From Anaerolineaceae bacterium (lineage in GTDB: Bacteria > Chloroflexota > Anaerolineae > Aggregatilineales > Phototrophicaceae), in the NCBI GenBank assembly GCA_002699585.1, contig PABP01000009.1, positions 793,750 through 857,749 on the forward strand: a stretch of 64,000 nucleotides of DNA, read 5' to 3'. Under the pieces are notes generated by a model, which worked only from the letters and a program-made list of their open reading frames with translations, did no database searches and had not been told where the DNA came from. How positions within the stretch are numbered: the stretch's first letter is position 1; each line of letters begins with the position of its first letter. Positions 22,251 to 39,266 of the stretch are shown one piece after another. The position numbers and the translations under genes are program-made.

Positions 22251-23018
22251 ATGATTACACCACAGATGACCGCTTTTGCGGTCCCAGATATGCCTTTGGT
22301 TCAGCCGGGGGATGACCTCGTCGCCCTCATCATGGACGCACTCGCTGCTCATGATGAATCCTTGCAAGATGGCGATATTCTGGTCATCTCATCGAAAATT
22401 GTCTCCAAGTCGGAAGATTGCTTTGTTGATTTGTACACGGTCAAACCGGGTGCAAAGGCCTTGGAGCTAGCCGAAAAAGTGAATAAAGACCCGCGCATTG
22501 TGGAAATGGTCCTCCAGGAGAGCAAATCCATTTCGCGTGCTGTTCCCGGCGTGCTGGTCGTGGAACATCGCCTGGGTTTTGTATCGGCCAATGCGGGCAT
22601 CGACCAGTCCAATGTCGATGATAGCGGCCACCATATTCTGCTGCTGCCCATCGACCCCGATGCATCCGCCGCCGCGTTGCGCCAGGGGCTGCAAGAGCGC
22701 CTTGGTGTGACCGTTGGCATCGTCATCAGCGACACGCACGGACGCCCATTCCGGCGTGGCAATGTGGGTGTGGCCATAGGCATCGCCGGGTTGCCCGCTG
22801 TCGTCGATCTGCGTGGCGAAGTGGACCTGTTTGGCCGCGAAATGCTGGCCTCAGTAGAAGGTTTTGGCGATCTGCTGGCCTCAACCGCCCACTTGCTCTG
22901 TGGGGAAACTAATGAAGGTCGCCCGGTCATTGTGTTGCGTGGCGTACCTGTGGCCGATGTTGAGCATGGCCTGGGCGCGGACATGAACCGTGATCCAGCC
23001 CACGACCTGTATCGCTGA
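22251..23018 (+). CDS. cofE: F420-0:gamma-glutamyl ligase CofE
   Basis: 255 residues. Family motifs DGDILVISSKIVSKSE (about 40-55), the RLGFVSANAGIDQSN segment (about 107-121), ISDTHGRPFRRGNVGVAIG (about 160-178) and LRGEVDLFGREM (about 185-196). Adds gamma-linked glutamates to F420-0 with GTP. It is the stand-alone CofE form of about 250 residues without the fused nitroreductase domain of actinobacterial FbiB; a separate nitroreductase gene follows after 8 bases. Confidence 0.95.
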   Translation: MITPQMTAFAVPDMPLVQPGDDLVALIMDALAAHDESLQDGDILVISSKIVSKSEDCFVDLYTVKPGAKALELAEKVNKDPRIVEMVLQESKSISRAVPGVLVVEHRLGFVSANAGIDQSNVDDSGHHILLLPIDPDASAAALRQGLQERLGVTVGIVISDTHGRPFRRGNVGVAIGIAGLPAVVDLRGEVDLFGREMLASVEGFGDLLASTAHLLCGETNEGRPVIVLRGVPVADVEHGLGADMNRDPAHDLYR

Positions 23019-23026
23019 GGTGGCTT

Positions 23027-23644
23027 GTGTCGGATTCACCGTTCACTAACCCGGTGCTGGACTCGATTTTTGCGCGGCGCTCTTTGCGTCGCTATCAGTC
23101 GCAGCCCGTGCCCAAACCGCTCATTGAGCAGGTTTTGGCCGCTGGGACGTGGGCGCCTTCAGCCCATAATCGCCAACCCTGGCGTTTTGCCGTTGTCACC
23201 ACCGACGAGCAAAAGCGTCATCTAGCCCTGGCGATGGGTGCGCGATTGCGTGCTGACTTACAAGCTGACCATGTACCGGAATCCGTCATCGCAGCAGATG
23301 TCGAGCGCTCCTATGATCGCCTGACGTCAGCCCCGGTGCTGATCGTAATGAATCTGACGATGGCCGACATGGATACGTACAGCGATGCCGCGCGTAACCA
23401 GAGCGAAAGCATCATGGCGATCCAGAGTGTGGCCATGTGTGGGCAAAACATCCTGTTGGCAGCACATAGCCTGGGGCTGGCCGCCTGTTGGATGTGTGCC
23501 CCCTTATTTTGCCCGGATGTCGTCCGGCAGGCGCTTGATTTGCCAGACGATTGGCAGCCACAGGGCATCATCACCCTGGGCTATCCTGACCAATCGCGTG
23601 AGCGAACGCGCGAACCATTAGAAACGAGGCTTTTGTGGCGCTAG
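23027..23644 (+). CDS. Nitroreductase-family protein, candidate dehydro-F420 reductase
   Basis: 205 residues from GTG 23027. FMN-binding nitroreductase pattern: ARRSLRRYQSQPVPKP (about 13-28), GTWAPSAHNRQPWRF (about 43-57), the AIQSVAMCGQNILLAAHSLGLAACWM helix (about 132-157) and PQGIITLGYPD (about 182-192). Position directly between cofE and cofD, with a 10-base overlap into cofD, matches the FMN domain that actinobacteria carry at the C-terminus of FbiB. There it reduces dehydro-F420-0, which is needed when phosphoenolpyruvate is the precursor. By inference this free-standing protein does that job here. A general nitro/ene reductase is the alternative. Confidence 0.8.
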   Translation: MSDSPFTNPVLDSIFARRSLRRYQSQPVPKPLIEQVLAAGTWAPSAHNRQPWRFAVVTTDEQKRHLALAMGARLRADLQADHVPESVIAADVERSYDRLTSAPVLIVMNLTMADMDTYSDAARNQSESIMAIQSVAMCGQNILLAAHSLGLAACWMCAPLFCPDVVRQALDLPDDWQPQGIITLGYPDQSRERTREPLETRLLWR

Positions 23645-24576
23645 ATCACAACATTGTCGTATTGGTAGGCGGTGTCGGTGGGGCGAAATTAGCCCTCGGC
23701 CTGCAAATGATCCTACCCCCAGAGCAGCTCACAGTGATCGTCAACACGGGCGATGACTTCTGGCATTATGGTTTGCGCATCTGCCCGGACATCGACACGG
23801 TGCTTTATACGCTCAGTGGCCGCGTTGACCCGGTTAATGGCTGGGGCCTGGCCGATGATAGCCGTGTCGTCCTGCAATCCCTGGCGGACTATGGAGAAAA
23901 TACTTGGTTCGGTCTGGGCGATAAAGACATCGCCACCCATCTGCTGCGCACACACATGTTGCGTAACGGCCACAGCTTGTCTGAGGTCATCGACCATCTG
24001 GCCAAGGCCCAGGGCATCCAGTCAGCTATCCTGCCGATGACTAATGACCCGGTGCCGACCATTGTCGAAACAGCCGAATATGGCGAATTGGCTTTTCAGG
24101 AGTATTTCGTCAAATATCGTTGGCAGCCAACCGTGACAGGCTTGCGTTACCAGGACATAGAGCAAGCAAGCCTTAATCCGGCGGTTACATCCGCATTACA
24201 AAATGCCGATATGATATTATTTGGGCCATCTAACCCGTGGCTGTCTATCGAGCCGATCTTATCGGTGCCGGGGATGCGCGACACCTTATTAGCCTGTGAT
24301 GTCCCGCGTGTCGCCGTGACGCCCATCGTTGATGGGCAAGCCATAAAAGGTCCGGCAGCCAAATTGATGGCGGAATTGGGGTATGACGACGTCAGTGCGC
24401 AGAACGTAGCCAAACATTATGGTCAGATCATCAATGGTTTTGTGTATGATAAGAGTGACGCCGCCTTCCACGTTGACGCCCTCCATACAATAGGTATGGA
24501 CACCATTATGAAAAATAATGCCGATAAAGCACGCTTGGCACAGCAAATGCTGGCGTGGATTAAGGAATGGACTTAA
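23635..24576 (+). CDS. cofD: 2-phospho-L-lactate (or enolpyruvyl) transferase CofD
   Basis: 313 residues from GTG 23635 inside the end of the nitroreductase gene. Motifs VVLVGGVGGAKLALGLQ (about 8-24), VNTGDDFWHYGLRICPDIDT (about 35-54), and FGPSNPWLSIEPILSVPGM (about 197-215) identify CofD/FbiA. It transfers the phospho-lactyl or enolpyruvyl moiety from its GDP-activated form to the flavin Fo. Fo synthase (CofG/CofH or FbiC) is not in the window and must be elsewhere. Confidence 0.95.
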   Translation: MALDHNIVVLVGGVGGAKLALGLQMILPPEQLTVIVNTGDDFWHYGLRICPDIDTVLYTLSGRVDPVNGWGLADDSRVVLQSLADYGENTWFGLGDKDIATHLLRTHMLRNGHSLSEVIDHLAKAQGIQSAILPMTNDPVPTIVETAEYGELAFQEYFVKYRWQPTVTGLRYQDIEQASLNPAVTSALQNADMILFGPSNPWLSIEPILSVPGMRDTLLACDVPRVAVTPIVDGQAIKGPAAKLMAELGYDDVSAQNVAKHYGQIINGFVYDKSDAAFHVDALHTIGMDTIMKNNADKARLAQQMLAWIKEWT

Positions 24577-25256
24577 TGAGTATTTGGGCGATTGTACCGG
24601 TTAAACCTCTGCGACGTGCCAAGACACGCTTAGCGGATATCTTATCACCCGATCAGCGTTACCAACTGGCGGAAATGATGCTCCGTCAGGTCTTGGCTGT
24701 GCTCGATAGTGCGCCCCAGGTCACCGGGACGCTGGTGATTAGCCGTGATACGGAAGCCTTAGCCATCGCCCGAGATATGGGCGCACGGACGATTCAAGAG
24801 AGCAGCAGTTCCGATCTGAATCTCGCTCTCATCCGGGCGACGGAAGTGATCCGTGTATGGGGCGCGGGCGCGGCGCTCATCATTCCGGCAGATTTGCCAT
24901 TTGTGAATGCGCACGACATCGCATCCATTGCCGGCATGGGGCGCTATGGTCCCTGCATTGTCATTGCCTCCGATGTCTACAAAATGGGGACCAATGCGCT
25001 TCTGGTTCGGCCTCCGGGCTTGATCAACTATGCCTTCGGTGAAAATAGCTACAATCTCCATCTGGCTGCCGCCCAACGCGCCAATATCGATGTCCATACC
25101 TACGATTCTGACTCGCTTCGCATCGATATTGATGTGCCAGAGGACCTGGTGCGGTACAATGAGCTGGTAGAGAGTGGTGAATTCACATTACTGACCCGCA
25201 TGTTGCCTGATCTCTCTCGTAGCGACATGCCCACCACAGGAGGCAGCAATGGCTGA
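24576..25256 (+). CDS. cofC: CofC/FbiD-type phospholactate or PEP guanylyltransferase
   Basis: 226 residues from ATG 24576, which shares its A with the cofD stop (TAATG) and has AAGGA 9 bases upstream; ATG 24567 is an in-frame alternative. Nucleotidyltransferase pattern: [18 protein letters not shown] (about 5-22), a GALVIS-like strand ([11 protein letters not shown]), and [14 protein letters not shown] (about 105-118) with the catalytic Asp. Makes GDP-activated 2-phospholactate or phosphoenolpyruvate for CofD. The nitroreductase next door argues for PEP as precursor, which is an inference. Overlaps the LLM gene by 8 bases. Confidence 0.93.
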
Positions 25257-26256
25257 TCGTGTAGCCCTCTATTTGCAAGACGCGCATCCGTTACGGGATG
25301 CCATCGAATACGTAAAACACGCCGAAGCGCGTGGTTTTGAAGCCGTCTGGCAGGCGGAAAGTCGCCTTGTGCGCGATGCCATTGTGCCGATGGCCGCTTT
25401 TGCCGCGACCACCCATCGTATTAAGATCGGTTCTGGTGTCATCAACAACTGGACCCGTAACGCCGCTGTCATCGCCGCGACATTCTTGACGCTCGATGAC
25501 TTGGCCCCGGATCGCATCATGTGTGGTATCGGTGCCTGGTGGGACCCGCTGGCATCCAAGGTGGGCATCACGCGCCGCAAGAATCTGCTTGCCATGCGTG
25601 AAGTCGTCACTGTTGTGCGTGCCTTGCTGGCCCGTGAGCGTGTGACCTTCAAGGGCGAATTCGTGCAGCTTGATGATGTCGAACTCGACGTCGTGCATGG
25701 TCGCAAAGAGGCGCGTAATGTGCCTATTTATGTTGGCGCGACTGGCCCCAAGATGATGGCCCTCACCGGGGAAATTGGTGATGGCGTCGTCCTGAATTAC
25801 CTTGTTTCGCCCAAGTACAACGATATGGCCCTGCAGCAGCTAGAGCAGGGTGCAAAGATCGCAGGCAAGAGCGTTTATGATATTGATCGTCCGCAGTTGG
25901 TCGTTTGCTCGGTTGATAATGATCGCGAGAAGGCCCTCAATGGCGCCCGTAAGTTGGTGACGCAGTACCTCGGTCAACAGCCGCATATCATGAAGGCCAG
26001 CGGCGTCAGCCAGGATTTGCTCGATGAAATTGGTCAGGTCCTGACATGGCCAGCCACTGAAGAACAAATCGAGCAAGCCATGAAGCTCGTCCCCGACGAT
26101 GTGGTCCAGATGATTACTGCTTCCGGTACGCCGGACGAAGTCAAAGCCAAAGTGCGCGAATATGTCGACCACGGCGCGACCTGCCCGATTCTCTACCCAT
26201 TGGGGCCAGATGTCCGCCTGATGATCGATACCTTCGCCAACGGGTACTCTGCCTAG
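25249..26256 (+). CDS. LLM-class F420-dependent oxidoreductase
   Basis: 335 residues; GGAGGCAGCA before ATG 25249. Luciferase-like TIM barrel: [42 protein letters not shown] resembles methylene-H4MPT reductase (Mer)-like and F420-dependent G6P dehydrogenase-like proteins, with [31 protein letters not shown] (about 160-190) as the phosphate-binding and bulge region. Uses F420H2 as hydride donor or F420 as acceptor. The natural substrate cannot be told from sequence. Being the last gene of the cofactor operon, it is likely a main consumer of F420 in this organism. Confidence 0.9.
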
Positions 26257-28741: not shown

Positions 28742-29596
28742 ATGGCGGATGACCATCACGATGTTTACCAGGCACTTCTGGCCGCGACCGACGCCGGGAC
28801 CAGTGCCGCGCTCGCAACCATTATCAAAACCCAGGGATCTATCCCACGCCATGCCGGTAGCAAGATGCTGGTCTATGCCGATGGGTCCTCCGTCGGTACA
28901 GTCGGCGGTGGCGCGATGGAATCCAAAGTAATCGAGGTCGCCCTGGCCGCTATTGCCGATGGTCAGTCCCGTATCGAGCAGTACACGCTCAACAGCATCG
29001 AAGCTGGCGATCCGGGTATATGTGGCGGTTCCGCCCAGATATTCATCGAGCCATTGGCGACGACACCCACCTTGCTGGTGATCGGTGGCGGGCATGTCGG
29101 CAAGGCCCTGGCGGAACTCGGCAAATGGATGGGCTTTCGTGTCGTCCTCAGCGATGATCGCCCCGATTATGCCAATCCGGGTTATGTCGCCGACCTCGAC
29201 CAATATCTGGTGTGCCCACCTGAGGAAATCTTCGATCATGTCGGCATTACGCCCAATACCTACGTCGCAGCCGTGACGCGCGGCCTACCCATCGACAAAA
29301 ATATCATTCCCGCTTTGCTAGAGACGCCTGCCGCCTATATTGGCCTGATTGGTAGCCGCCGACGCTGGTCGTTGACCGTCGCTGCACTCAAGGAAAATTT
29401 CGGACTGACGGATGTCCAGCTTGCGCGGGTGCACGCCCCCATTGGCCTGGAGTTGGAAGCGGAAACGCCGAAAGAAATCGCCCTCAGCATCATGGCGGAA
29501 ATTACGATGATGCGCCGCGGTGGTACCGGTGCCCCGATGCAAACATCCCCGGCGGCACTACCCAAAACTGATCGCCAGCCGACATCACAGGGTTAG
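28742..29596 (+). CDS. xdhC: XdhC/CoxI-type molybdenum hydroxylase maturation factor
   Basis: 284 residues. The N-terminal XdhC_CoxI part has GSIPRHAGSKMLVYADGSSVGTVGGGAMES (about 30-60), and the C-terminal NAD(P)-binding part has LLVIGGGHVGKALAELGKWM (about 110-129), followed by PKEIALSIMAEITMMRRGG near the end. XdhC proteins bind the molybdenum cofactor, promote its terminal sulfuration (or selenation) and insert it into xanthine-dehydrogenase-type enzymes. It precedes the fused FAD/2Fe-2S subunit by two genes, in the same run. No CxxC is needed for the call. The phosphoesterase starts 3 bases later. Confidence 0.92.
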   Translation: MADDHHDVYQALLAATDAGTSAALATIIKTQGSIPRHAGSKMLVYADGSSVGTVGGGAMESKVIEVALAAIADGQSRIEQYTLNSIEAGDPGICGGSAQIFIEPLATTPTLLVIGGGHVGKALAELGKWMGFRVVLSDDRPDYANPGYVADLDQYLVCPPEEIFDHVGITPNTYVAAVTRGLPIDKNIIPALLETPAAYIGLIGSRRRWSLTVAALKENFGLTDVQLARVHAPIGLELEAETPKEIALSIMAEITMMRRGGTGAPMQTSPAALPKTDRQPTSQG

Positions 29597-29599
29597 TCT

Positions 29600-30211
29600 G
29601 TGAAGATCCTGACGATTAGCGATATTGTGATGCCGCAGTTAGAGAACGCGGCCAATCTGCGCCGCCGTTATAGTGATATCGATGTGGTTATTAGCTGTGG
29701 CGATATGCCTGTCGCTTACATGGACTACATCACCACGATTCTGGGGGTGCCGCTGCTGTATGTGCGCGGCAACCATGATGAATCCTACGACAATGAACCA
29801 CCCGGTGGCGTCGATCTGCATAAGAATATTTATACCTACAAGGGCCTCACATTTGTCGGTCTGGAAGGCTCAATCCGCTATAACAAGGGCAAAATCCAGT
29901 ACACACAGGGCCAGATGGCACGCATGGTCAACCGGATGACGCCCTCACTCTATTTCCATAGGATGCGAACGGGTCAATTTCCTGATATTCTGGTAGCACA
30001 TTCACCCGCATGGGGCATCCATGATGCTGAAGATTATCCCCATCATGGCTTTAAAGCGCTGCTGACTTACATGAAGCGGTTTAAGCCGCGCTATATGTTT
30101 CATGGGCATGTACACACCTGGGATCGCCGCAAGACGGTGGTCACAGATTATGAAGAAACACGCATTATGAATATCAATCCCTATACGGTCATAGACGTGG
30201 AGCCACGCTAA
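29600..30211 (+). CDS. Calcineurin-like metallophosphoesterase
   Basis: 203 residues from GTG 29600. Motifs: VISCGDMPVAYMDY (about 30-43), RGNHDES (about 56-62), LVAHSPAWGIHD (about 132-143) and FHGHVHTW (about 169-176), with the usual metal ligands Asp, Asn, His and HxH. The first motif DxH is replaced by SDIV (residues 7-10), so one ligand position differs. Substrate unknown. Its place between xdhC and the FAD/2Fe-2S subunit suggests a role near cofactor or purine nucleotide metabolism, but such genes are promiscuous in location. Confidence 0.85.
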   Translation: MKILTISDIVMPQLENAANLRRRYSDIDVVISCGDMPVAYMDYITTILGVPLLYVRGNHDESYDNEPPGGVDLHKNIYTYKGLTFVGLEGSIRYNKGKIQYTQGQMARMVNRMTPSLYFHRMRTGQFPDILVAHSPAWGIHDAEDYPHHGFKALLTYMKRFKPRYMFHGHVHTWDRRKTVVTDYEETRIMNINPYTVIDVEPR

Positions 30212-30257
30212 AGGCGTCCACGGCTTGCGCATAGGCCATAGTCAAGGGTATGGAGCA

Positions 30258-31682
30258 ATGTGGCAGCAATTTGAGAGCGTTAGCACACTGACAGAAGCAT
30301 TGGAGCAACTGGACGCGCATCAGCAGTCCGCGCGCATTATCGCTGGCGGTACCGACCTGATGATCGAAATGGAACATGGCAGCCGCCCGGATTTAACCAC
30401 GCTCATTGATATTACGCGGGTACCCGGTCTGGATACTATCACTCAACACGGTGATTCGATCCGGCTGGGGCCGCTGGTGAATCATAATCATGTGGCGGGT
30501 AGCCAACTGCTTATCGAACGGGCTTTGCCGCTGGCTCAGGCCAGTTGGCAGGTCGGCGCGCCCCAGATTCGCAACCGCGCGACGGTGGCCGGCAACCTCA
30601 TTACAGGTAGCCCAGCCAACGATACCATCGCACCCTTGATTGCGCTCGATGCCAGCGTCACCTTAGCCAGCGTGGATGGCGAACGCACCGTTGCCTTGTC
30701 CGACTTCTACACAGGCTTGCGCCGCACAGTCATGCAGCCCAACGAAATGCTCATCAGCATTGATTTCCCGGCATTGGCAGCGAACGAGCGTGGGGTCTTC
30801 CTGAAATTGGGCCTGCGTCGTGCCCAGGCGATTTCAGTCGTGAACGCCGCCGTTGTCCTGACTTTCGATGGCGATACCGTCACCCAAGCGCGCGTCGTCC
30901 TGGGTAGTGTCGCCCCAACGGTCATTCGTATCACGCAAGCTGAACAAGCGCTAATTGGCAAAACACTCGATGACGCAACCATCCGCGAGGTGGCGCGTGT
31001 TGCGGCCAGTGTACCAACTCCGATTGACGATGTACGCAGTACGGCCACTTATCGCAGTGAAATGATTAAAGTGCTGGTGGCCCGTGCCTTGCGCATCCTG
31101 GCCGCGGATGACGACGATACCGGGGTTCCACAGCAGCCTGCGATGCTCTGGGGCGTCAATCAGGCCCATGTGGCCGACAACGCCCTTAAGCAGCCTGTTT
31201 CGCATGATGCCAACGCAACCATTGAAACCACCATCAACGGCGAGGCGTATACTGTCACAACTGGCCAGGACAAATCCTTGCTCGATTGGCTGCGCGAGGA
31301 TGCTGGTTTAAAAGGTGCTAAAGAAGGGTGCGCTGAGGGCGAATGCGGCGCCTGTACGGTCTATCTTGATGGGGCGGCTGTCATGGCTTGCATGGTGCCC
31401 GCACCTCGCGCTCACGGTGCCGACATTGTCACTGTCGAGGGCTTGCAGGAGGACGAAACCTTGCACCCAATTCAACAAGCTTTTGTCAACCAGGCTGCTG
31501 TACAATGTGGGTATTGTACACCTGGCTTTCTGATGTCCGGGGCCAAGCTCATTGAAGAGCATCCCCAACCGACACTTGAACAAATCCAACAGAGTATTAG
31601 CGGCAATTTGTGTCGTTGTACGGGCTACTACGCCATCATCAACGCCATGAAAGAAGCGGCCGCTCTGGCTCAGGGATCGTAG
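30258..31682 (+). CDS. Fused FAD-binding and [2Fe-2S] subunit of a xanthine dehydrogenase-type enzyme
   Basis: 474 residues from ATG 30258; TTG 30225 is also in frame. Residues about 1-290 are a CO-dehydrogenase medium subunit-type FAD domain (ARIIAGGTDLMIEMEHGS, APQIRNRATVAGNLITGSPANDT). Residues about 320-474 are a small-subunit iron-sulfur part: CAEGECGACTVYLDG for the plant-type [2Fe-2S] near residue 357, then CGYCTPGFLMS and CRCTGYYAI for the second cluster. Order is FAD first and FeS last, whereas fused XdhA-type proteins usually have FeS first. It should carry electrons from the Mo subunit (34155) to NAD or another acceptor. Together with xdhC this supports purine hydroxylation. Confidence 0.9.
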   Translation: MWQQFESVSTLTEALEQLDAHQQSARIIAGGTDLMIEMEHGSRPDLTTLIDITRVPGLDTITQHGDSIRLGPLVNHNHVAGSQLLIERALPLAQASWQVGAPQIRNRATVAGNLITGSPANDTIAPLIALDASVTLASVDGERTVALSDFYTGLRRTVMQPNEMLISIDFPALAANERGVFLKLGLRRAQAISVVNAAVVLTFDGDTVTQARVVLGSVAPTVIRITQAEQALIGKTLDDATIREVARVAASVPTPIDDVRSTATYRSEMIKVLVARALRILAADDDDTGVPQQPAMLWGVNQAHVADNALKQPVSHDANATIETTINGEAYTVTTGQDKSLLDWLREDAGLKGAKEGCAEGECGACTVYLDGAAVMACMVPAPRAHGADIVTVEGLQEDETLHPIQQAFVNQAAVQCGYCTPGFLMSGAKLIEEHPQPTLEQIQQSISGNLCRCTGYYAIINAMKEAAALAQGS

Positions 31683-31732
31683 TCAGCGCACACATCAGCA
31701 GCTTACATGGCATAGACGAGGAGGATGAAGCG

Positions 31733-32128
31733 ATGGGTTTTAGTGACGATGGAAGTATTAAAAAGGCGAGTGGCCGCAAATGGAGTCGTGTGCTCACGCC
31801 AATATTTGGATTGCTGATCGTCGCCGCCTCTGGCGCGATTGCATATGTACTTGCGGAACCCATTTTTAATGCGATTCTGGATGCAATTCCTGAGGTGCCG
31901 GCGGTCGATGAAGTCTTATTAGCCGTTGGCGTCATGATCTTTATCGTGTGTTTGGCCATATTTGGCGGGTTATATGCGGTTGTTGCGCCCAAACCCAACA
32001 AAGCCACCTACGTCACCGAGCGCGAGCTGGACCGTCTGAAGAAAGAACGCGCCGCCGAAGAAAAGGCCAAAGAACGTCGCCGGAAAGAAATGCGGCGGCG
32101 TATGCGCGACCAAAACAAGAATTTATAG
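31733..32128 (+). CDS. Small two-helix membrane protein with highly basic tail
   Basis: 131 residues from ATG 31733, chosen for its GAGGAGGA ribosome site 7 bases upstream. Two hydrophobic helices (about 22-42 and 61-87) are followed by a charged, probably helical tail rich in Lys, Arg and Glu (residues 98-131, RELDRLKKERAAEEKAKERR and on). No family recognised. The tail could bind RNA, DNA or acidic lipid at the cytoplasmic face; that is inference. It sits between the fused Xdh subunit and the large phosphorylase-like gene. Confidence 0.75.
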   Translation: MGFSDDGSIKKASGRKWSRVLTPIFGLLIVAASGAIAYVLAEPIFNAILDAIPEVPAVDEVLLAVGVMIFIVCLAIFGGLYAVVAPKPNKATYVTERELDRLKKERAAEEKAKERRRKEMRRRMRDQNKNL

Positions 32129-32273
32129 CAATCTGTAGTAGATAAGATGATGCAAAGCTGCCAATTGATCCTAGAATCAGGTAGGGTAAAAGGCGACATC
32201 ACTTTGTGCACATCTCAGTAAAACAGGAAGGAGAGAGCGGCCGCACGATGACGTGTGGCCGTTGTGTAATCTT

Positions 32274-34025
32274 ATGGAGCGAACTGTCCCTCGCCGCATT
32301 GGCGATGAAATTCAACTTTACATGCGTACCTACTATTCCTTGCTGCGGTCCAGCCATCCCTTCGACATAGAAACGCTGGAAGAGAGCCACCTGGCGATGA
32401 CCTCATCGCTGCACATAAGTGCGCAGGAATTGCAGCCGGATGTCTCCGCATTCTTGTACTCGGCGTTGCGCCTGCCGGATTGCATCAAAGATGTTCGCCG
32501 TGTCTGGATTGGCCAGACGGAACGCTCATTCGTCGGCGCGGGCTACACCGACATCGCTGACTGGGAACGGGTCTTTGCGCCCGGTCGCCGTCGCCGTATG
32601 CAATTTGATGGTAAGGAAACGCTGGTCGCATTTATAGCCAGCCGTTCAGACATCGACGACATGATTCCCATTTTGGTTGCCTTCCAGATTGAATGGAATA
32701 AATTCAATGCGCTTTTGCAAGATTCCGGCATCCAAAGGTGGCTGGAAAAGCGTAAAGGCCATATTGGCCAGCTCAGTGATGAAGACTGCGGGCACCTCGC
32801 CGAGTCCTTGCAAGTTAGCGTACCTGACCTGCGCCGCTTAGAGATCGTCTGGCAGGCGGGCTTGATCGAACTTCTGCTGGAAATGGCCGCCAAACGCAAA
32901 GATATGTCTGTTGGCATGATTTCTGGCTCGCTGTCGGACTATCGCCGCGCGACCGCTTCCTGGTGGAAAGAGTTGTGTAAAGCGGTCGAAGCGCACGGTG
33001 TCGACCCAGAAGATCGCCCGATTTACTTTGTGTCTAGCAACACGCATTCGCTGATTAACTTGCTCACAGGCTTTGCCCATCGCCATGAAGAGAGCCTCGT
33101 TCGTTATATCGAGCGCTCCAATTACGAATCCATGCTGGCGGAGTACAAAGACATTCGGCGCTATGGCCACAAAAGCTTAGAGAACTTCCTGTACTATGTG
33201 CTGGGGCGCTTCCTGGCGGATGACCAGGCCAGCATTGACGATTTGCGTCAGGTGGAGCGCAGCGTGGGCATTTATCGTGTACCCAACAAACACGGCTTCC
33301 AAATCGAAGCCCAGATTATCGACCTCGGCCAGCTCAACCCCGATTGGCTTGACCCACGTCTGCACCTGCCCAACGTTGCCGACGAACTGCCGCGCAGTGA
33401 TGCCCTCATTGTCAACATTGACTATCCGCTGGGCATGGCCGCCTACGAAATCCTCAGCAGGATTTCCGAGCGTGTGACCCAGTTACGCGGTGTCTATATC
33501 ATGGGCAAAGCGGCCACGCTCAATGGCCGCGTTGGCGATGTCATGATCCCTAACGTCGTCCATGATGAGCACTCGCAGAACACCTACCTGTTCGATAACT
33601 GCTTCTCTGCCGATGATGTCAAATCCTACATGAACTTCGGCAACACGCTCGACAATCAGAAGGCGGTCACGGCCCTGGGCACCTTCTTACAGAACCAGAC
33701 CTACATGAGCGTCTTCTACCGCGAAGGCTACACCGACATCGAAATGGAAGCAGGGCCGTACTTGTCAGCAATTTATGAAGCTTTCCGGCCCAAGCGTCAC
33801 CCGAATGACGAAATCGTCAACATGTATCAGGTGCCTTTTGATATTGGCTTCTTGCATTACGCATCGGATACGCCCATGAAGCATGGTCAGAATCTGGGGG
33901 CGGTCAACCTGGCCTATATGGGTGTCGAACCCACCTATGCGACGGCTGTCGCCATCTTGCGCCGCATCTTCAATCAGGAGTCGCAGCGCCAGGGCCAACG
34001 AGCGGTACCCATGCCCATCAAGTAA
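32274..34025 (+). CDS. Large protein with nucleoside-phosphorylase-like C-terminal part
   Basis: 583 residues from ATG 32274; GTG 32253 adds seven residues and neither start has a strong ribosome site. I recall such proteins as the family DUF6909, but that name is not certain. The N-terminal 370 residues are alpha-helical with RIGDEIQLYMRTYYSLLRSS at the start and have no known fold by eye. From about residue 376, DALIVNIDYPLGMAAYEIL, GRVGDVMIPN (about 420) and TDIEMEAGPYLSA (about 486) look like the phosphorylase superfamily (PNP, MTAP, UDP), where a Met-Glu pair contacts the ribose. With pnp at 38409 and Xdh subunits beside it, a purine-related hydrolase or phosphorylase is possible. Function not established. 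Confidence 0.75.
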   Translation: MERTVPRRIGDEIQLYMRTYYSLLRSSHPFDIETLEESHLAMTSSLHISAQELQPDVSAFLYSALRLPDCIKDVRRVWIGQTERSFVGAGYTDIADWERVFAPGRRRRMQFDGKETLVAFIASRSDIDDMIPILVAFQIEWNKFNALLQDSGIQRWLEKRKGHIGQLSDEDCGHLAESLQVSVPDLRRLEIVWQAGLIELLLEMAAKRKDMSVGMISGSLSDYRRATASWWKELCKAVEAHGVDPEDRPIYFVSSNTHSLINLLTGFAHRHEESLVRYIERSNYESMLAEYKDIRRYGHKSLENFLYYVLGRFLADDQASIDDLRQVERSVGIYRVPNKHGFQIEAQIIDLGQLNPDWLDPRLHLPNVADELPRSDALIVNIDYPLGMAAYEILSRISERVTQLRGVYIMGKAATLNGRVGDVMIPNVVHDEHSQNTYLFDNCFSADDVKSYMNFGNTLDNQKAVTALGTFLQNQTYMSVFYREGYTDIEMEAGPYLSAIYEAFRPKRHPNDEIVNMYQVPFDIGFLHYASDTPMKHGQNLGAVNLAYMGVEPTYATAVAILRRIFNQESQRQGQRAVPMPIK

Positions 34026-34064: not shown

Positions 34065-34154
34065 GTGGCCATCTAACGAATCTGAGTGTGCTGGCATGCG
34101 ACAACTTGGCCGCACATCTTGTTTATTCACAGCTTGCAATCAGTGAGGTTGATC

Positions 34155-36386
34155 GTGCCTAAGGAAAAAACGGTTGTTGTCGGCCAATCCCTCAAGCGGA
34201 TTGATGCGCGCGGCAAAGTAACCGGAGAAACCCCATACCCTGGTGACATCGATATGCCCGGCCAGGCCTGGATGAAATTGCGTTTTAGTGATCGCGCCCA
34301 TGCGCGCATTGTGGCTATAGATATATCCGTTGCGGAAGCCTTACCGGGCGTTGTGGGCATCCTGACCTCAAAAGATGTGCCTGTCAATGAATATGGCCTT
34401 GTCATGAAGGACCAGCCCGTGTTGTGCGGCCCTGGTGGCGATATTCCTGGCACGGATGTCGTGCGCTGCTATATGGACATGATTGCTGTCGTCGTTGCGG
34501 AAACCGAAGCGATTGCGGCTCAGGCGGTCGATCTGATTGACGTCACCTATGAAGATCTGCCCGCTGTGTTTGATGCCGAACTAGCTCTCGCGGAAAACGC
34601 GCCGCAGTTGCATCCCGATACTCCCGATAATGTCTTGTGCCACTATCGCATTCGTAAAGGCGATATGGAGCAGGGTTGGTCCCAGGCGGATGTCGTCGTC
34701 GAGGATGTTTACGAAACGACCTGGCAGGAGCACGCTTACCTCCAGCCGGAAGCCGGATTAGGATATATTGACGAAGAAGGCCGCGTGACGGTTGTTGTTG
34801 CTGGTCAGTGGACCCACGAAGATCAGGAACAGATTTACCACGCGCTCGGTCTGCCACAAGAACAGGTCCGCGTGATCTACCCGGCTATTGGTGGTGCATT
34901 CGGTGGCCGCGAAGATATGTCCGTCCAGATCGTTCTGGCATTGGCTGCCCAGGCGTCCCAACGCCCGGTGAAAACCCAGTGGAGCCGCGAAGAGTCGATT
35001 TTGCATCATCACAAGCGCCACCCGATCAAAGTCTATGCCAAGTGGGGCGCCACTCGTGAAGGTCACATCGTCGCCGTAGAAGCCAAAGTTGTCGGCGATG
35101 CCGGTGCTTACAACTACACATCGACCAAGGTGCTCGGTAATGCCAATATGATGGCATCCGGCCCTTATGAAATCGACAATATTCAGGTCGATACCTACGG
35201 CGCCTATACCAATAACATTCCCTGTGGAGCCTTCCGAGGATTTGGCGCGCCGCAAGCGTTGTTCGCTGCGGAAGGGCAGGTCAACAAGTTAGCTGTTGCC
35301 TTGGATATGGACCCGGTAGAAATCCGGCGGCGCAATGTCTTTAAAGAGGGGAGCCTCGCGCCAGTTGGCACACCGCTCCCGGCGGGTGTGTCTATGCCGC
35401 AAGTCGTGGATGCCTGTGCTCGTGAGTCTTACTGGCAGCAAGCCCCCGATAATTCCTGGCAGCGCAGTGTTGATCCTGAGCAACCAACGTCCTTGACCAA
35501 GCGACGTGGTATTGGTTTCGCTGCTGGCTACAAGAATGTCGGTTATAGCTTCGGTTTCCCGGAGCAGTCCCACGCTCGTATTGAGCTTTACGGTAAAGCG
35601 CAGATTGACGAAGTCGTTGTCAAGCTGGCTGGGGCTGATGTCGGCCAGGGTGCGCATACCGTCTTTTCTCAGATGGCTGCGGAAGCTGTCGGCGTGCCCT
35701 TTGAAAAAGTGCGCCTCGTTGCTTCCGATACAGCTCATACAGGGAGTTCTGGTAGCGCGTCTGCTTCACGCCTGACCTTCATGACGGGCAACGCCGTTCG
35801 TGGTGCCGCTGAACAGGCCCTTGAGCGTTGGGCCGCGGAAGATCGTCCGGCTATTGGTGATTTCACCTATCGGCCACCCAAGACCACACCCTATGATCCG
35901 CTAACAGGCCGCAGCGAACCCAACTTCGCCTATGGTTACACGGCCCAGGCGGTCGAAGTCGAAGTGGATATTGAAACCGGGCAGGTCACGCTGCTCAATG
36001 TTGTATCAGCCAATGATGTGGGTCGCGCTATCAACCCGCAGTTGGTCCAGGGCCAGATCGAAGGGGCGGTCATTCAGGCGGCAGGTTACGCTCTCATGGA
36101 GTACCTTGTCAGTGACCAGGGCCGCATTCGTAATCCTTATCTGTCGACCTATATCATCCCGACGGTGTACGATGTGCCGCCACAGGTGAAGTCGGTCATC
36201 CTGGAGTACGAAGACCCGATTGGCCCCTGGGGCGCGCGCGGTATGGCAGAAATGCCGTTCTTGCCGCTGACGCCAGCCATCGCTGCTGCCATCTACGACG
36301 CGACCGGGGTCTGGATCAACTCACAGCCCTTTACGCCGGATAAAGTGGTGGCCAAACTTAGAGAACAGAACATCGGCGTCATTTAG
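34155..36386 (+). CDS. Molybdopterin-binding subunit of xanthine dehydrogenase-type hydroxylase
   Basis: 743 residues from GTG 34155, selected because GAGG lies 6 bases upstream and the GQSLKRIDARGKVTGE start fits family N-termini; an ATG at 34086 would add an unlikely hydrophobic leader. Xdh/AOX motifs: GGAFGGREDMS (about 250), AFRGFGAPQ (about 358), GADVGQGAHTVFSQMAAEA (about 495) and GPWGARGMAEMPFLP near residue 695, where the Glu after ARGMA fits the catalytic base. The reading frame has no in-frame TGA for selenocysteine; the Se in selenium-dependent hydroxylases is a labile cofactor atom, not Sec. With xdhC and YqeC nearby this is a likely purine hydroxylase. It could instead be an aldehyde or nicotinate-type enzyme. 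Confidence 0.9.
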   Translation: MPKEKTVVVGQSLKRIDARGKVTGETPYPGDIDMPGQAWMKLRFSDRAHARIVAIDISVAEALPGVVGILTSKDVPVNEYGLVMKDQPVLCGPGGDIPGTDVVRCYMDMIAVVVAETEAIAAQAVDLIDVTYEDLPAVFDAELALAENAPQLHPDTPDNVLCHYRIRKGDMEQGWSQADVVVEDVYETTWQEHAYLQPEAGLGYIDEEGRVTVVVAGQWTHEDQEQIYHALGLPQEQVRVIYPAIGGAFGGREDMSVQIVLALAAQASQRPVKTQWSREESILHHHKRHPIKVYAKWGATREGHIVAVEAKVVGDAGAYNYTSTKVLGNANMMASGPYEIDNIQVDTYGAYTNNIPCGAFRGFGAPQALFAAEGQVNKLAVALDMDPVEIRRRNVFKEGSLAPVGTPLPAGVSMPQVVDACARESYWQQAPDNSWQRSVDPEQPTSLTKRRGIGFAAGYKNVGYSFGFPEQSHARIELYGKAQIDEVVVKLAGADVGQGAHTVFSQMAAEAVGVPFEKVRLVASDTAHTGSSGSASASRLTFMTGNAVRGAAEQALERWAAEDRPAIGDFTYRPPKTTPYDPLTGRSEPNFAYGYTAQAVEVEVDIETGQVTLLNVVSANDVGRAINPQLVQGQIEGAVIQAAGYALMEYLVSDQGRIRNPYLSTYIIPTVYDVPPQVKSVILEYEDPIGPWGARGMAEMPFLPLTPAIAAAIYDATGVWINSQPFTPDKVVAKLREQNIGVI

Positions 36387-36536: not shown

Positions 36537-37901
36537 ATGAAATTACACCAGGCTTTTGATATTGTGCGTGGCGATGTTGTCTCTTTCATCGGCGCAGGTG
36601 GCAAAACAGCCACGTTATTGGCACTAGGCCATGAACTCGTTGAAAGTGGTTGGCGTGTCCTGGCGACCACATCAACCCATATCGACGAAGAACTGCTGCC
36701 CAGCCTGCCGCACATCCTGCATTACAAAGAAGACCCTCAAGCGATTTCTGCCGCGCTCAGTCAGCATGGCTTCGTGTTCCTGTATGATCGCATCCAGAAC
36801 CGCCGCATCTATGGGCCGGATGTTGAGTTTGTGCGTCAACTGCTGGATCGGGTCGATAGCGATGTCTTGCTGATCAAGGCTGATAATGCCAACGGACGTC
36901 CCTTTAAGGCGCCCAAGAAGAACGAGCCAGTCATTCCATCAGAGTCGTCCCTCGTTGTGCCGATAGTTGGCCTTTCCGCGCTGGATCAGCCGTTGGACGA
37001 TGACCACGTCTATCATCCCAAAGCCATGATCGACAAATTTGGTTTTTACAAAGGGGCCAAAGTGCGCTCACCCTGGGTGTCCCAGGTCCTGCGTGATGAC
37101 GACCTCGGCTTGTATGGTATCCCTGAGAGTGCCCGCGTCATTGGTTTCTTGAACCAGGCCCCTCACGAAGGCTACTTGCGCAGTCGTGCCCGTCTCATTG
37201 CCAAACTGGCGCTCAAATCACCGCGCTTTCATGGTGTGGCGCTGGGTTCCGCCCGTGCTGCTGACCCGGTTGTGGAAATTCGCCGCCCGGTTGCCGCTAT
37301 TGTCCTGGCTGCGGGACGCTCTAGCCGCATGGGCCAGCCCAAGGTGTTGCTACCCTGGGAAGGTGGCAAAACCATCATAGAGCACATCCTGACCCAACTT
37401 ATTCGCTCCCGTGTGGACCATATCGTCGTGGTGACGGGCCACTATGCCGATGAGGTCAAGCGTCTGGTTAAACCCTATGACGTGAAGGTTGTGCATAATA
37501 GGGCGTATAAAACAGGGGAAATGGTCTCTTCGCTGAAGGCGGGCTTACGCACCCTGCCGGACCACATTTCGGCATCGATGGTTGTGCTTGGCGACCAGCC
37601 GCGTTTGCAGCCGCGCGTCCTCTATGAATTGCTCAATGCCTATTCAGAAGGGGTGGGGGATATTGTTATTCCCAGCTACCAGATGCGCCGGGGGCATCCT
37701 ATCTTAATTGGACGCCGTTACTGGCCGGAGATTTTGGCGTTGCGTAACCATGAGCAACCGCGCGACGTTATCAATGCCCACGCGGATAAAATTGCCTATG
37801 TCAAAGTTTATACGGATAGTGTGATACGCGATGTGGATACGCCAGCAGATTACTACCAGGAGCGCCAGCGAGCGGGCCTGCAAAAGAAACGAATTGACTA
37901 A
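36537..37901 (+). CDS. YqeC-MocA fusion, selenium-dependent molybdenum hydroxylase accessory protein
   Basis: 454 residues joining two proteins that are separate and neighbouring in E. coli (yqeC and ygfJ/mocA). Residues about 1-245: YqeC, with the P-loop-like SFIGAGGKTATLLAL (about 14-28), LATTSTHI and VDSDVLLIKADNANGRPFK. Residues about 252-454: MobA/MocA-type nucleotidyltransferase, AAIVLAAGRSSRMGQPK (about 252-268), VVVTGHYADEVKRL and VLGDQPRLQPRVL (about 346-358), which transfers CMP onto molybdopterin. YqeC marks selenium-dependent molybdenum hydroxylase systems. The fusion ties cofactor cytidylylation to that system in one polypeptide and supports selenium in the hydroxylase of this window. 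SelD and YqeB are not here. Confidence 0.88.
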   Translation: MKLHQAFDIVRGDVVSFIGAGGKTATLLALGHELVESGWRVLATTSTHIDEELLPSLPHILHYKEDPQAISAALSQHGFVFLYDRIQNRRIYGPDVEFVRQLLDRVDSDVLLIKADNANGRPFKAPKKNEPVIPSESSLVVPIVGLSALDQPLDDDHVYHPKAMIDKFGFYKGAKVRSPWVSQVLRDDDLGLYGIPESARVIGFLNQAPHEGYLRSRARLIAKLALKSPRFHGVALGSARAADPVVEIRRPVAAIVLAAGRSSRMGQPKVLLPWEGGKTIIEHILTQLIRSRVDHIVVVTGHYADEVKRLVKPYDVKVVHNRAYKTGEMVSSLKAGLRTLPDHISASMVVLGDQPRLQPRVLYELLNAYSEGVGDIVIPSYQMRRGHPILIGRRYWPEILALRNHEQPRDVINAHADKIAYVKVYTDSVIRDVDTPADYYQERQRAGLQKKRID

Positions 37902-38408: not shown

Positions 38409-39266
38409 ATGGTGAATACAGCAGATACCTATACGTTTGATGATTACAAGAACGCGGTGGATGTCATCCGCCAGCGAACGACCCAACAGCCGACGATTGG
38501 CCTGGTTTTAGGGTCGGGGTTGGGTAGCCTTGCGGACACGCTTGGGAATGCAACAGCCATCCCCTACGATGAAATCCCCGGTTGGCCCACCTCGACCGTA
38601 CACGGTCATGCAGGCCGTTTGGTCATCGGTGAATTGGAAGGGCATACTGTCGTTGCCCAGCAGGGGCGCGCTCATTTTTATGAGGGCTACAGCATGCAAA
38701 AGATTACCTTCCCCATCCGTGTGATGCATCTCTTGGGCATCAATACACTGATCCTGACCAACGCCGCAGGTGGCGTTGATCCCAGCTATTCCGTTGGCGA
38801 CCTGATGCTCATCAACGACCATATTAATTTTCCGGGTATGACGGGTAGTAATCCGCTGATGGGCCCTAATGATGAGCGCATCGGTCCGCGTTTTGTGGGC
38901 ATGGCCCAGGCCTATGATCGTGAACTACGTGTGATCGCTCGCCACATCGCGTCGGAAAATGACATTCCCCTGCATGAGGGCGTTTATGCAGCCGTCTCTG
39001 GCCCCAGTTTTGAAACCCCTGCGGAAATCCGTATGCTGCGGACGATTGGCGCCAATGCAGTCGGTATGTCCACTGTGCATGAGGTATTGGTCGCGCGCCA
39101 TGCAGGCATCCGCGTGATGGCCTGCTCCGGCATCACCAACGTTGCTATCGACCATGTCGACAGCGAGCTAGAGACCAATCACGAAGAAGTACTGGAAGCG
39201 GGTCTGGTTGTTGTGCCACGTCTGAAAGCTGTCTTGACAGGTGTCCTCCAGACGTTGGCGCGCTAA
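38409..39266 (+). CDS. punA: Purine nucleoside phosphorylase (class I, trimeric type)
   Basis: 285 residues. Motifs: IGLVLGSGLGSLADTL (about 25-40), TVHGHAGRLVIGELEGHTVVAQQGRAHFYEGYSM with His and Arg of the phosphate site (about 63-97), NAAGGVDPSYSVGD (about 118-131), and VYAAVSGPSFETPAEIRMLR plus the GMSTVHEVLVARHAGI substrate site with Met and the Asn of SGITNVAID (about 192-245). Phosphorolyses inosine and guanosine to base and ribose 1-phosphate, supplying bases to xanthine dehydrogenase. Fits the purine theme of the region and ends it. Confidence 0.95.
   Translation: MVNTADTYTFDDYKNAVDVIRQRTTQQPTIGLVLGSGLGSLADTLGNATAIPYDEIPGWPTSTVHGHAGRLVIGELEGHTVVAQQGRAHFYEGYSMQKITFPIRVMHLLGINTLILTNAAGGVDPSYSVGDLMLINDHINFPGMTGSNPLMGPNDERIGPRFVGMAQAYDRELRVIARHIASENDIPLHEGVYAAVSGPSFETPAEIRMLRTIGANAVGMSTVHEVLVARHAGIRVMACSGITNVAIDHVDSELETNHEEVLEAGLVVVPRLKAVLTGVLQTLAR

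Follow-up and report, generated by a model that had tools for sequence, protein, structure and literature searches.

A DUF6909 protein encoded between xanthine dehydrogenase-type genes of an Anaerolineaceae bacterium: predicted nucleoside phosphorylase/nucleosidase fold and candidate N-ribosyl hydrolase activity

In the nucleoside phosphorylase/nucleosidase (NP-I) superfamily (PF01048), a Met-Glu motif characterizes the hexameric type, which includes the DeoD purine nucleoside phosphorylase (PNP), uridine phosphorylase (UP), methylthioadenosine/S-adenosylhomocysteine (MTA/SAH) nucleosidase (MTAN) and AMP nucleosidase (AMN), the trimeric PNP type being different, and the phosphorylases bind phosphate through a GDPxR loop and an arginine preceding a GxxG motif. 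The present analysis concerns a gene carried by a 64,000-nucleotide stretch of DNA (the window) from an Anaerolineaceae bacterium (Chloroflexota; contig PABP01000009.1, positions 793,750 to 857,749). This gene lies between two genes encoding subunits of a xanthine dehydrogenase (XDH)-type hydroxylase and its product belongs to DUF6909 (PF21850), which is a family of unknown function in Pfam and for which a literature search by these two names found no paper. We assign DUF6909 to a divergent branch of the NP-I superfamily with two domains. A family without assigned function thereby receives a fold and an active site, both predicted, and a reaction that can be tested.

The closest described system is the AMP nucleosidase Amn (EC 3.2.2.4), made of PF10423 (AMNp_N) and an NP-I domain. 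According to its published description (PMC9584410), the active site comprises N205, W383, M404, E405 and D428, while R381 and K436 are at the phosphate together with H188/Y189 from the adjacent chain; more distant homologues share only M404, E405 and D428, and the active-site loop is conserved yet weak in density. Like Amn, DUF6909 has two domains, a C-terminal domain of the NP-I type and aligned Met-Glu and Asp residues; unlike Amn, it has an N-terminal domain that is not recognisably related, no match to PF10423 and other residues aligned with R381 and W383, and the stretch from the first to the next strand is longer (N256 to N381, compared to N205 to V276 in Amn). Its predicted fold is shared with UP, DeoD PNP and MTA/SAH nucleosidase (Z 15-16 over ~215 residues), and the motifs G..G-GD, EME and SD occur in the same order as in hexameric-type enzymes, from which it differs by an identity of only ~10%, by the lack of a PF01048 match with hmmscan and by a length about twice as large.

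Predicted fold, homology and extent of the gene

An AlphaFold2 model, for which the window protein was aligned with 76 relatives, reached a predicted local distance difference test (pLDDT) score of 89.1 and a predicted template modelling (pTM) score of 0.89. A Foldseek search of the PDB gave 504 matches at E <= 0.001, the first of them an AMP nucleosidase (E 7.1e-7), and the best 50 of these 504 are all NP-I enzymes (AMP nucleosidases, uridine phosphorylases, MTA/SAH nucleosidases and purine nucleoside phosphorylases). VIA-align superposed the model on UP (6k8p_B) with Z 16.4 and a root-mean-square deviation (rmsd) of 2.7 over 218 residues, and on Escherichia coli Amn (1t8w_A) with Z 15.7 and rmsd 3.5 over 236 residues; Amn, PNP and UP are tied by VIA Z as the nearest NP-I branch. 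A preliminary description of this DNA, made from the sequence alone, had suggested a nucleoside phosphorylase-like C-terminus, to be abandoned if the predicted fold were unrelated to phosphorylases. The predicted fold is phosphorylase-like and of the NP-I type; we consider this assignment, for a modelled structure, as firm, and the C-terminal domain is very probably a true homologue of NP-I enzymes. The same description counted 370 unassigned helical residues ahead of this C-terminus. The N-terminal part is indeed devoid of any recognised fold, but it covers only residues ~1-227, since the VIA-matched range begins at residue 228 and includes a helical stretch (~267-332).

Sampling of 201 Chloroflexota genomes yielded DUF6909 in 65, and 14 control genomes yielded none. 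A scan of GTDB genomes retrieved at least 554 relatives, the best 80 of which were used as related loci, a set that therefore leans to close kin. Together with the window and 40 wide loci, taken from 40 of the 65 positive Chloroflexota genomes so as to span them (some of these loci being short), they make up a set of 121 rows. According to their records, the best 80 relatives all come from Chloroflexota-type bacteria apart from one (L068, JAHHHY010000001.1), recorded as Pleurocapsa minor; it shows an Anaerolineae-type cluster with DUF6909 (57% identity) and is probably a mis-binned contig. Furthermore, tblastn detected two distant homologues (24-28% identity, best E 9e-26) on plasmids of Persicobacter (Bacteroidota); the one that was scanned matches PF21850 (E 1.5e-64) and its pairwise comparison gave E 1e-34. 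As no match was found in phages or viral contigs, a phage or viral origin was rejected.

Profile-profile comparison, which the preliminary description had recommended against the phosphorylase superfamily, uses sequences only and agrees with the model. With hhalign, 91 DUF6909 sequences, restricted to their C-terminal part, aligned with a profile of 34 NP-I and Amn proteins over 156 columns (score 37.4, P 2.2e-4), compared to a maximum of 21.6 in 60 column shuffles and to 11.5 for the DUF6909 N-terminal domain. Using 123 rows (the 121 and both Persicobacter sequences), the score rose to 43.4 (probability 72, E 3.3e-5; maximum of 25.8 in 100 shuffles), a gain to which Persicobacter and the wider row set may both have contributed. 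The result was moderate against seven NP-I proteins of the genome that carries the window (P 2.4e-4, 43 columns), slightly lower (36.0 to 36.6) against a mixed profile including trimeric PNPs and weak (probability <1) against a shallow Amn profile; the global mode was informative in the C-terminal part only. Pfam scanning of 77 DUF6909 members also gave matches to Collagen_bind_2 in 18 (best E 0.00047, unexplained) and to Fe_dep_repress in four (best E 0.0043), both of which were taken as chance.

The open frame extends from 32253 to 34025 on the + strand and encodes 590 amino acids (aa) when counted from GTG 32253. In tblastn comparisons with 29 relatives, 28 alignments start at ATG 32274 (residue 8 of this frame) or further in, the sole exception (L025) starting two residues ahead of it, and Met1 of the shorter reading is conserved in at least 76 of 77 aligned rows. 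Homology therefore favours ATG 32274 and a predicted protein of 583 aa. This protein matches PF21850 over its full length (profile 1-535 of 535, 743 bits for a cut-off of 27, E 1.6e-223) and has no match in NCBIfam or PADLOC; its gene is single-copy in the genome. The full-length match, the presence in 65 of 201 Chloroflexota genomes and the near-invariance of motif residues show that this is a genuine gene and not a chance frame. Its features are as follows:

32274..34025, + strand: DUF6909 protein, 583 aa, PF21850 match, homology-based start
32274..32954, + strand: N-terminal domain, residues 1-227, not confidently matched to any fold
32955..33995, + strand: predicted NP-I fold domain, residues 228-574
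33033..33047, + strand: SSNTH, residues 254-258, following the first NP-I domain strand, putatively at the phosphate-loop place of phosphorylases
33072..33269, + strand: helical stretch inside the NP-I domain, residues ~267-332, approximate edges, from model secondary structure
33504..33554, + strand: GKAATLN-GRVGDVMIPN, residues 411-427, opposite the GxxGGL..GD motif of NP-I enzymes in the alignment
33741..33749, + strand: E490-M491-E492, opposite D403-M404-E405 (ribose binding) in the alignment to E. coli Amn
33864..33869, + strand: S531-D532, opposite S427-D428 in the alignment to E. coli Amn
33873..33914, + strand: residues 534-547, conserved loop with pLDDT <50, possible active-site lid (from model and conservation)

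The N-terminal domain was predicted with confidence when folded alone (pLDDT 90.2), and Foldseek found no match for it at E <= 0.001; its best VIA alignment (Z 4.2 over 53 residues) is under the noise level stated for this tool. It showed no profile match to the N-terminal domain of Amn (hhalign P 0.41), no match to PF10423 by hmmscan in the window protein or in 77 members, and no convincing structural match to the Amn domain among those listed, which does not exclude a relation. This domain is nevertheless under strong constraint, since R105-R107, S123, S125, D126, D129 and E140 are found in 121/121 rows and K143 in 120/121, several of the invariant residues, including the RRR, being shared with Persicobacter. 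Our guess is that it might bind a charged group.

Predicted active site and proposed reaction

The hhalign alignment to E. coli Amn sets GKAATLN--GRVGD on GHCGGLRESQAIGD, IEMEAG on IDMESA and ASDTP on VSDKP, and the co-linear motifs G..G-GD, (E/D)ME and SD of the superfamily were recovered with the 121 rows. The motifs of Persicobacter (GKAG, EGT, EMEGA and SDNP) are closer to the usual NP-I forms. The two motifs initially noticed within the last 210 residues, GRVGDVMIPN (residues 418-427, 33525-33554) and TDIEMEAGPYLSA (residues 487-499, 33732-33770), are located as described, and the resemblance of the second to a ribose-binding Met-Glu was well founded: M491 and E492 align with M404 and E405 of Amn, and D532 aligns with D428, all three residues being conserved in 121/121 rows as well as in Persicobacter L216. 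At the sequence level, both residues of the putative catalytic Glu/Asp geometry on which the preliminary description made its proposal depend are present. S254, N256 and H258 are also invariant (121/121) and K412 nearly so (120/121). By eye only, N256 may match N205 of Amn; a Lys or Arg at position 537 (89/121 rows), replaced by His in the window protein, may match K436. Residues 534-547, partly conserved and with pLDDT <50, resemble the conserved, weakly ordered active-site loop reported for Amn (PMC9584410).

From these data, we propose that DUF6909 is a nucleosidase (N-ribosyl hydrolase) with two domains, belonging to the NP-I superfamily and supplying bases for salvage or oxidation, a reading that we hold with moderate confidence. 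Activity on an N-ribosyl bond is likely; a hydrolytic reaction and a purine substrate are each somewhat favoured; specificity for AMP is doubtful. In the proposed mechanism, (i) Glu492 and Met491 would hold the ribose, (ii) the mobile loop 534-547 would close over the substrate, (iii) water would attack C1′ and Asp532 would protonate the leaving base, and (iv) the N-terminal domain, with its invariant arginines, may help to bind either a charged group on the substrate or a regulator. The substrate would most likely be a purine nucleoside or a nucleoside 5′-monophosphate, and the free base would be directed to salvage by hypoxanthine phosphoribosyltransferase (HPRT) in other lineages and to the XDH-type enzyme encoded around DUF6909 in the lineage of the window. 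This hypothesis combines an unusual operon position with a familiar kind of enzyme, whose activity is predicted. If it is right, DUF6909 could stand in for AMP nucleosidase in a phylum in which that enzyme was not detected (0/201 genomes), and the release of a base and its oxidation would be encoded by a single unit.

Among the alternatives, the one that survives best, although unlikely, is that DUF6909 would be the functional replacement of AMP nucleosidase in Chloroflexota, AMP-specific and controlled by its N-terminal domain. Amn is the first Foldseek match and has the same domain order, hhalign aligns the core of its active site, and the Amn N-terminal domain PF10423 was detected in 0/201 Chloroflexota genomes (3/14 controls being positive) compared to 65/201 for DUF6909. 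However, the N-terminal domains do not match by profile, Amn is only tied with PNP and UP by Z, and 136 of the 201 genomes show neither AMNp_N nor DUF6909. Furthermore, a 5′-phosphate site cannot be claimed for DUF6909 because R381 and W383 of Amn are aligned with other residues and H188-Y189 could not be placed.

A bolder and rather improbable extension of the nucleosidase reading is that DUF6909 would represent an unrecognised class of purine nucleotide N-glycosidases, with a new substrate- or effector-binding N-terminal domain, common in Chloroflexota, where the known AMP nucleosidase was not detected, and acting as the dedicated partner of XDH in one lineage. The base would then be released beside the enzyme oxidising it.

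It is quite improbable that DUF6909 is a nucleoside phosphorylase releasing a base and ribose-1-phosphate, in which Lys412 and the N-terminal arginines would replace the phosphate-binding arginines. PNP and UP match the model with Z as high as Amn, the RRR of the N-terminal domain is invariant and K412 occupies the position where E. coli PNP has a phosphate-binding serine. However, two short Bacteroidota proteins annotated as AMP nucleosidases carry a Lys at the same place. DUF6909 also lacks, at the matching places, the arginine motifs typical of NP-I phosphorylases: a phosphorylase-like protein of the same genome (L115) displays GDPAR and RVGSSGG where DUF6909 has SSNTH and IMGKAAT, i.e. neither a GDPxR loop nor an arginine two residues before the GKAAT glycine (the placement of SSNTH opposite GDPxR rests on model secondary structure and on the VIA range). 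Amn, a hydrolase, also lacks the arginine before the glycine. The preliminary description had left open a nucleosidase or a phosphorylase; fold and active-site residues agree with this pair, and since these arginine motifs are missing, we infer that the hydrolase is its likelier half.

Gene neighbourhoods and distribution

The flanking of the gene by two hydroxylase subunit genes, already pointed out in the preliminary description, was recovered, with a small open reading frame (ORF) lying in between on the upstream side. The gene order in the window is XdhC-type gene, phosphoesterase, FAD/2Fe-2S subunit, small ORF, DUF6909, molybdenum subunit, YqeC-MocA and PNP:

28742..29596, + strand: XdhC-type maturation factor, over the Pfam and below the NCBIfam cut-offs
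29600-30211: calcineurin-like phosphoesterase, flanked by the XdhC-type and FAD/Fe-S subunit genes, present in 39/80 related loci
30225..31682, + strand: XDH-type fused FAD and 2Fe-2S subunit, upstream flank
31610..32128, + strand: small ORF located between the FAD/Fe-S subunit gene and that of DUF6909, with an ATG at 31730
34086..36386, + strand: XDH-type molybdenum-binding subunit, downstream flank
36537..37901, + strand: YqeC-MocA-type fusion (cofactor maturation), YqeC half over the NCBIfam cut-off and MocA half just below
38409..39266, + strand: purine nucleoside phosphorylase, TIGR01700, over cut-off

The best NCBIfam score of the molybdenum subunit is with pucD (588 of 783 bits). Its alignment with XdhA and PaoC of E. 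coli did not decide on purine specificity: a glutamate that we take to be purine-specific is present in this subunit and not in E. coli XdhA, and an arginine is present in all three. The PNP at 38409 is of the trimeric type, in which the motif differs. The frame of the small ORF, if read from 31610, overlaps the upstream gene; a similar frame occurs in 3/80 related loci and its product looks membrane-like by eye. The phosphoesterase could act on a nucleotide.

Among the 121 rows placed on a tree, 102 could be scored: DUF6909 lies between the two XDH subunit genes in 49 (window included), next to the upstream subunit only in four and near neither in 49, the 19 other rows being not scorable; close relatives weigh heavily in this sample. 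A stricter count on 120 loci, requiring at least 2.5 kb on both sides, gave 41/94 in between and four one-sided. The position in between is found in several clades and needs four changes on the tree. In the closest among the relatives listed (L031, 67-68% identity), DUF6909 is immediately followed by YqeC-MocA, and the locus contains no molybdenum subunit gene. An xdh homologue is near DUF6909 in only 1/40 wide loci; therefore, the position between xdh genes is lineage-specific and a family-wide role linked to XDH was rejected.

Some other contexts also touch nucleosides or bases. HPRT-like genes, so labelled from PF00156 matches (L182, L185) or tblastn similarity (L198), are located 54 bp downstream of DUF6909 in L182, ~1 kb downstream in L185 with an opposite-strand frame in between, and ~4 kb upstream in L198; within ~1 kb, they were found in 2/120 loci examined. 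In one further locus out of 120 (L104), DUF6909 is inside an operon encoding two BPD_transp_2 permeases, a PnrA/Bmp-type binding protein and an ATPase, which by its gene content is a putative nucleoside-type ATP-binding cassette (ABC) importer operon.

Several results weigh against the proposed nucleosidase and its link to purine oxidation. Concerning the fold, hmmscan retrieved PF01048 neither for the window protein (at E up to 1) nor for any of 77 members (at E up to 10, with filters that drop most weak matches). Searches of PDB sequences were similarly silent on NP-I chains: of the profile searches, one alignment retrieved nothing and another only a kinesin-like protein (E 1.9), and phmmer gave only three weak matches, the best at E 0.31, to the repeat proteins called Cake. 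Concerning the substrate, besides the mismatch of R381 and W383 and the 5′-phosphate site that consequently cannot be claimed, the XDH-type subunits of the window reach the cut-off of no named NCBIfam family. The genome (96% complete) already encodes seven PF01048 proteins and no uricase was found in it. Concerning the neighbourhood, in addition to the scarcity of xdh homologues in wide loci, no gene family except DUF6909 recurs in more than seven of 55 compared loci, and in the annotated Persicobacter neighbourhood (the second one having no annotation) the gene adjoins a methyltransferase and a mechanosensitive channel, without purine genes. Finally, PF20256, an XDH family present in 165/201 Chloroflexota genomes, was not found in five of the 65 DUF6909 genomes (G004, G009, G045, G063 and G140, the latter being 79% complete and counted here as not among the listed positives). 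The association of both families (60/65 genomes with DUF6909 vs 105/136 of those lacking it; Fisher p 0.01, with no correction for kinship) is too weak to carry weight. In the genome that carries the window, no xanthine/uracil permease was found, and two divergent NP-I proteins are encoded elsewhere (G000:C1:154227 and G000:C28:127847, loci L117 and L116).

The least probable alternative, a non-catalytic or regulatory fold member that would assist the molybdenum hydroxylase, or the maturation of its cofactor, as a partner in assembly or ligand sensing, would account for the position between hydroxylase subunit genes in several clades, for the XdhC-type and YqeC/MocA-type genes nearby and for selD directly upstream in three loci, but it conflicts with the invariance of catalytic-type residues, with the five DUF6909 genomes in which PF20256 was not found (G004 and G063 also showing no YqeC, and selD having no match in G063 and, in G004, only one at E 1.7e-19, which from its E-value should be below the 125-bit cut-off) and with YqeC being no commoner with DUF6909 (15/65) than without it (39/136). 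A family-wide role in selenium or molybdenum cofactor maturation was likewise rejected from the distributions of YqeC (54/201 genomes) and SelD (over cut-off in 160/201).

Other genes near DUF6909

In the three loci with selD directly upstream (L084, L087 and L093), an M24-type peptidase gene is directly downstream of DUF6909, only the L093 peptidase having been scanned. An ORF with a TIR domain is located upstream of DUF6909 in L073 (4653-5192), L092, L102 and L107; the one scanned, from L073, matches PF13676. In the window, genes related to coenzyme F420 (cofE, FbiB-C-like, cofD and cofC) and an F420-type LLM oxidoreductase gene are located at 22251-26256, upstream of the hydroxylase cluster, and homologues are present in 29 to 38 of the 80 related loci.

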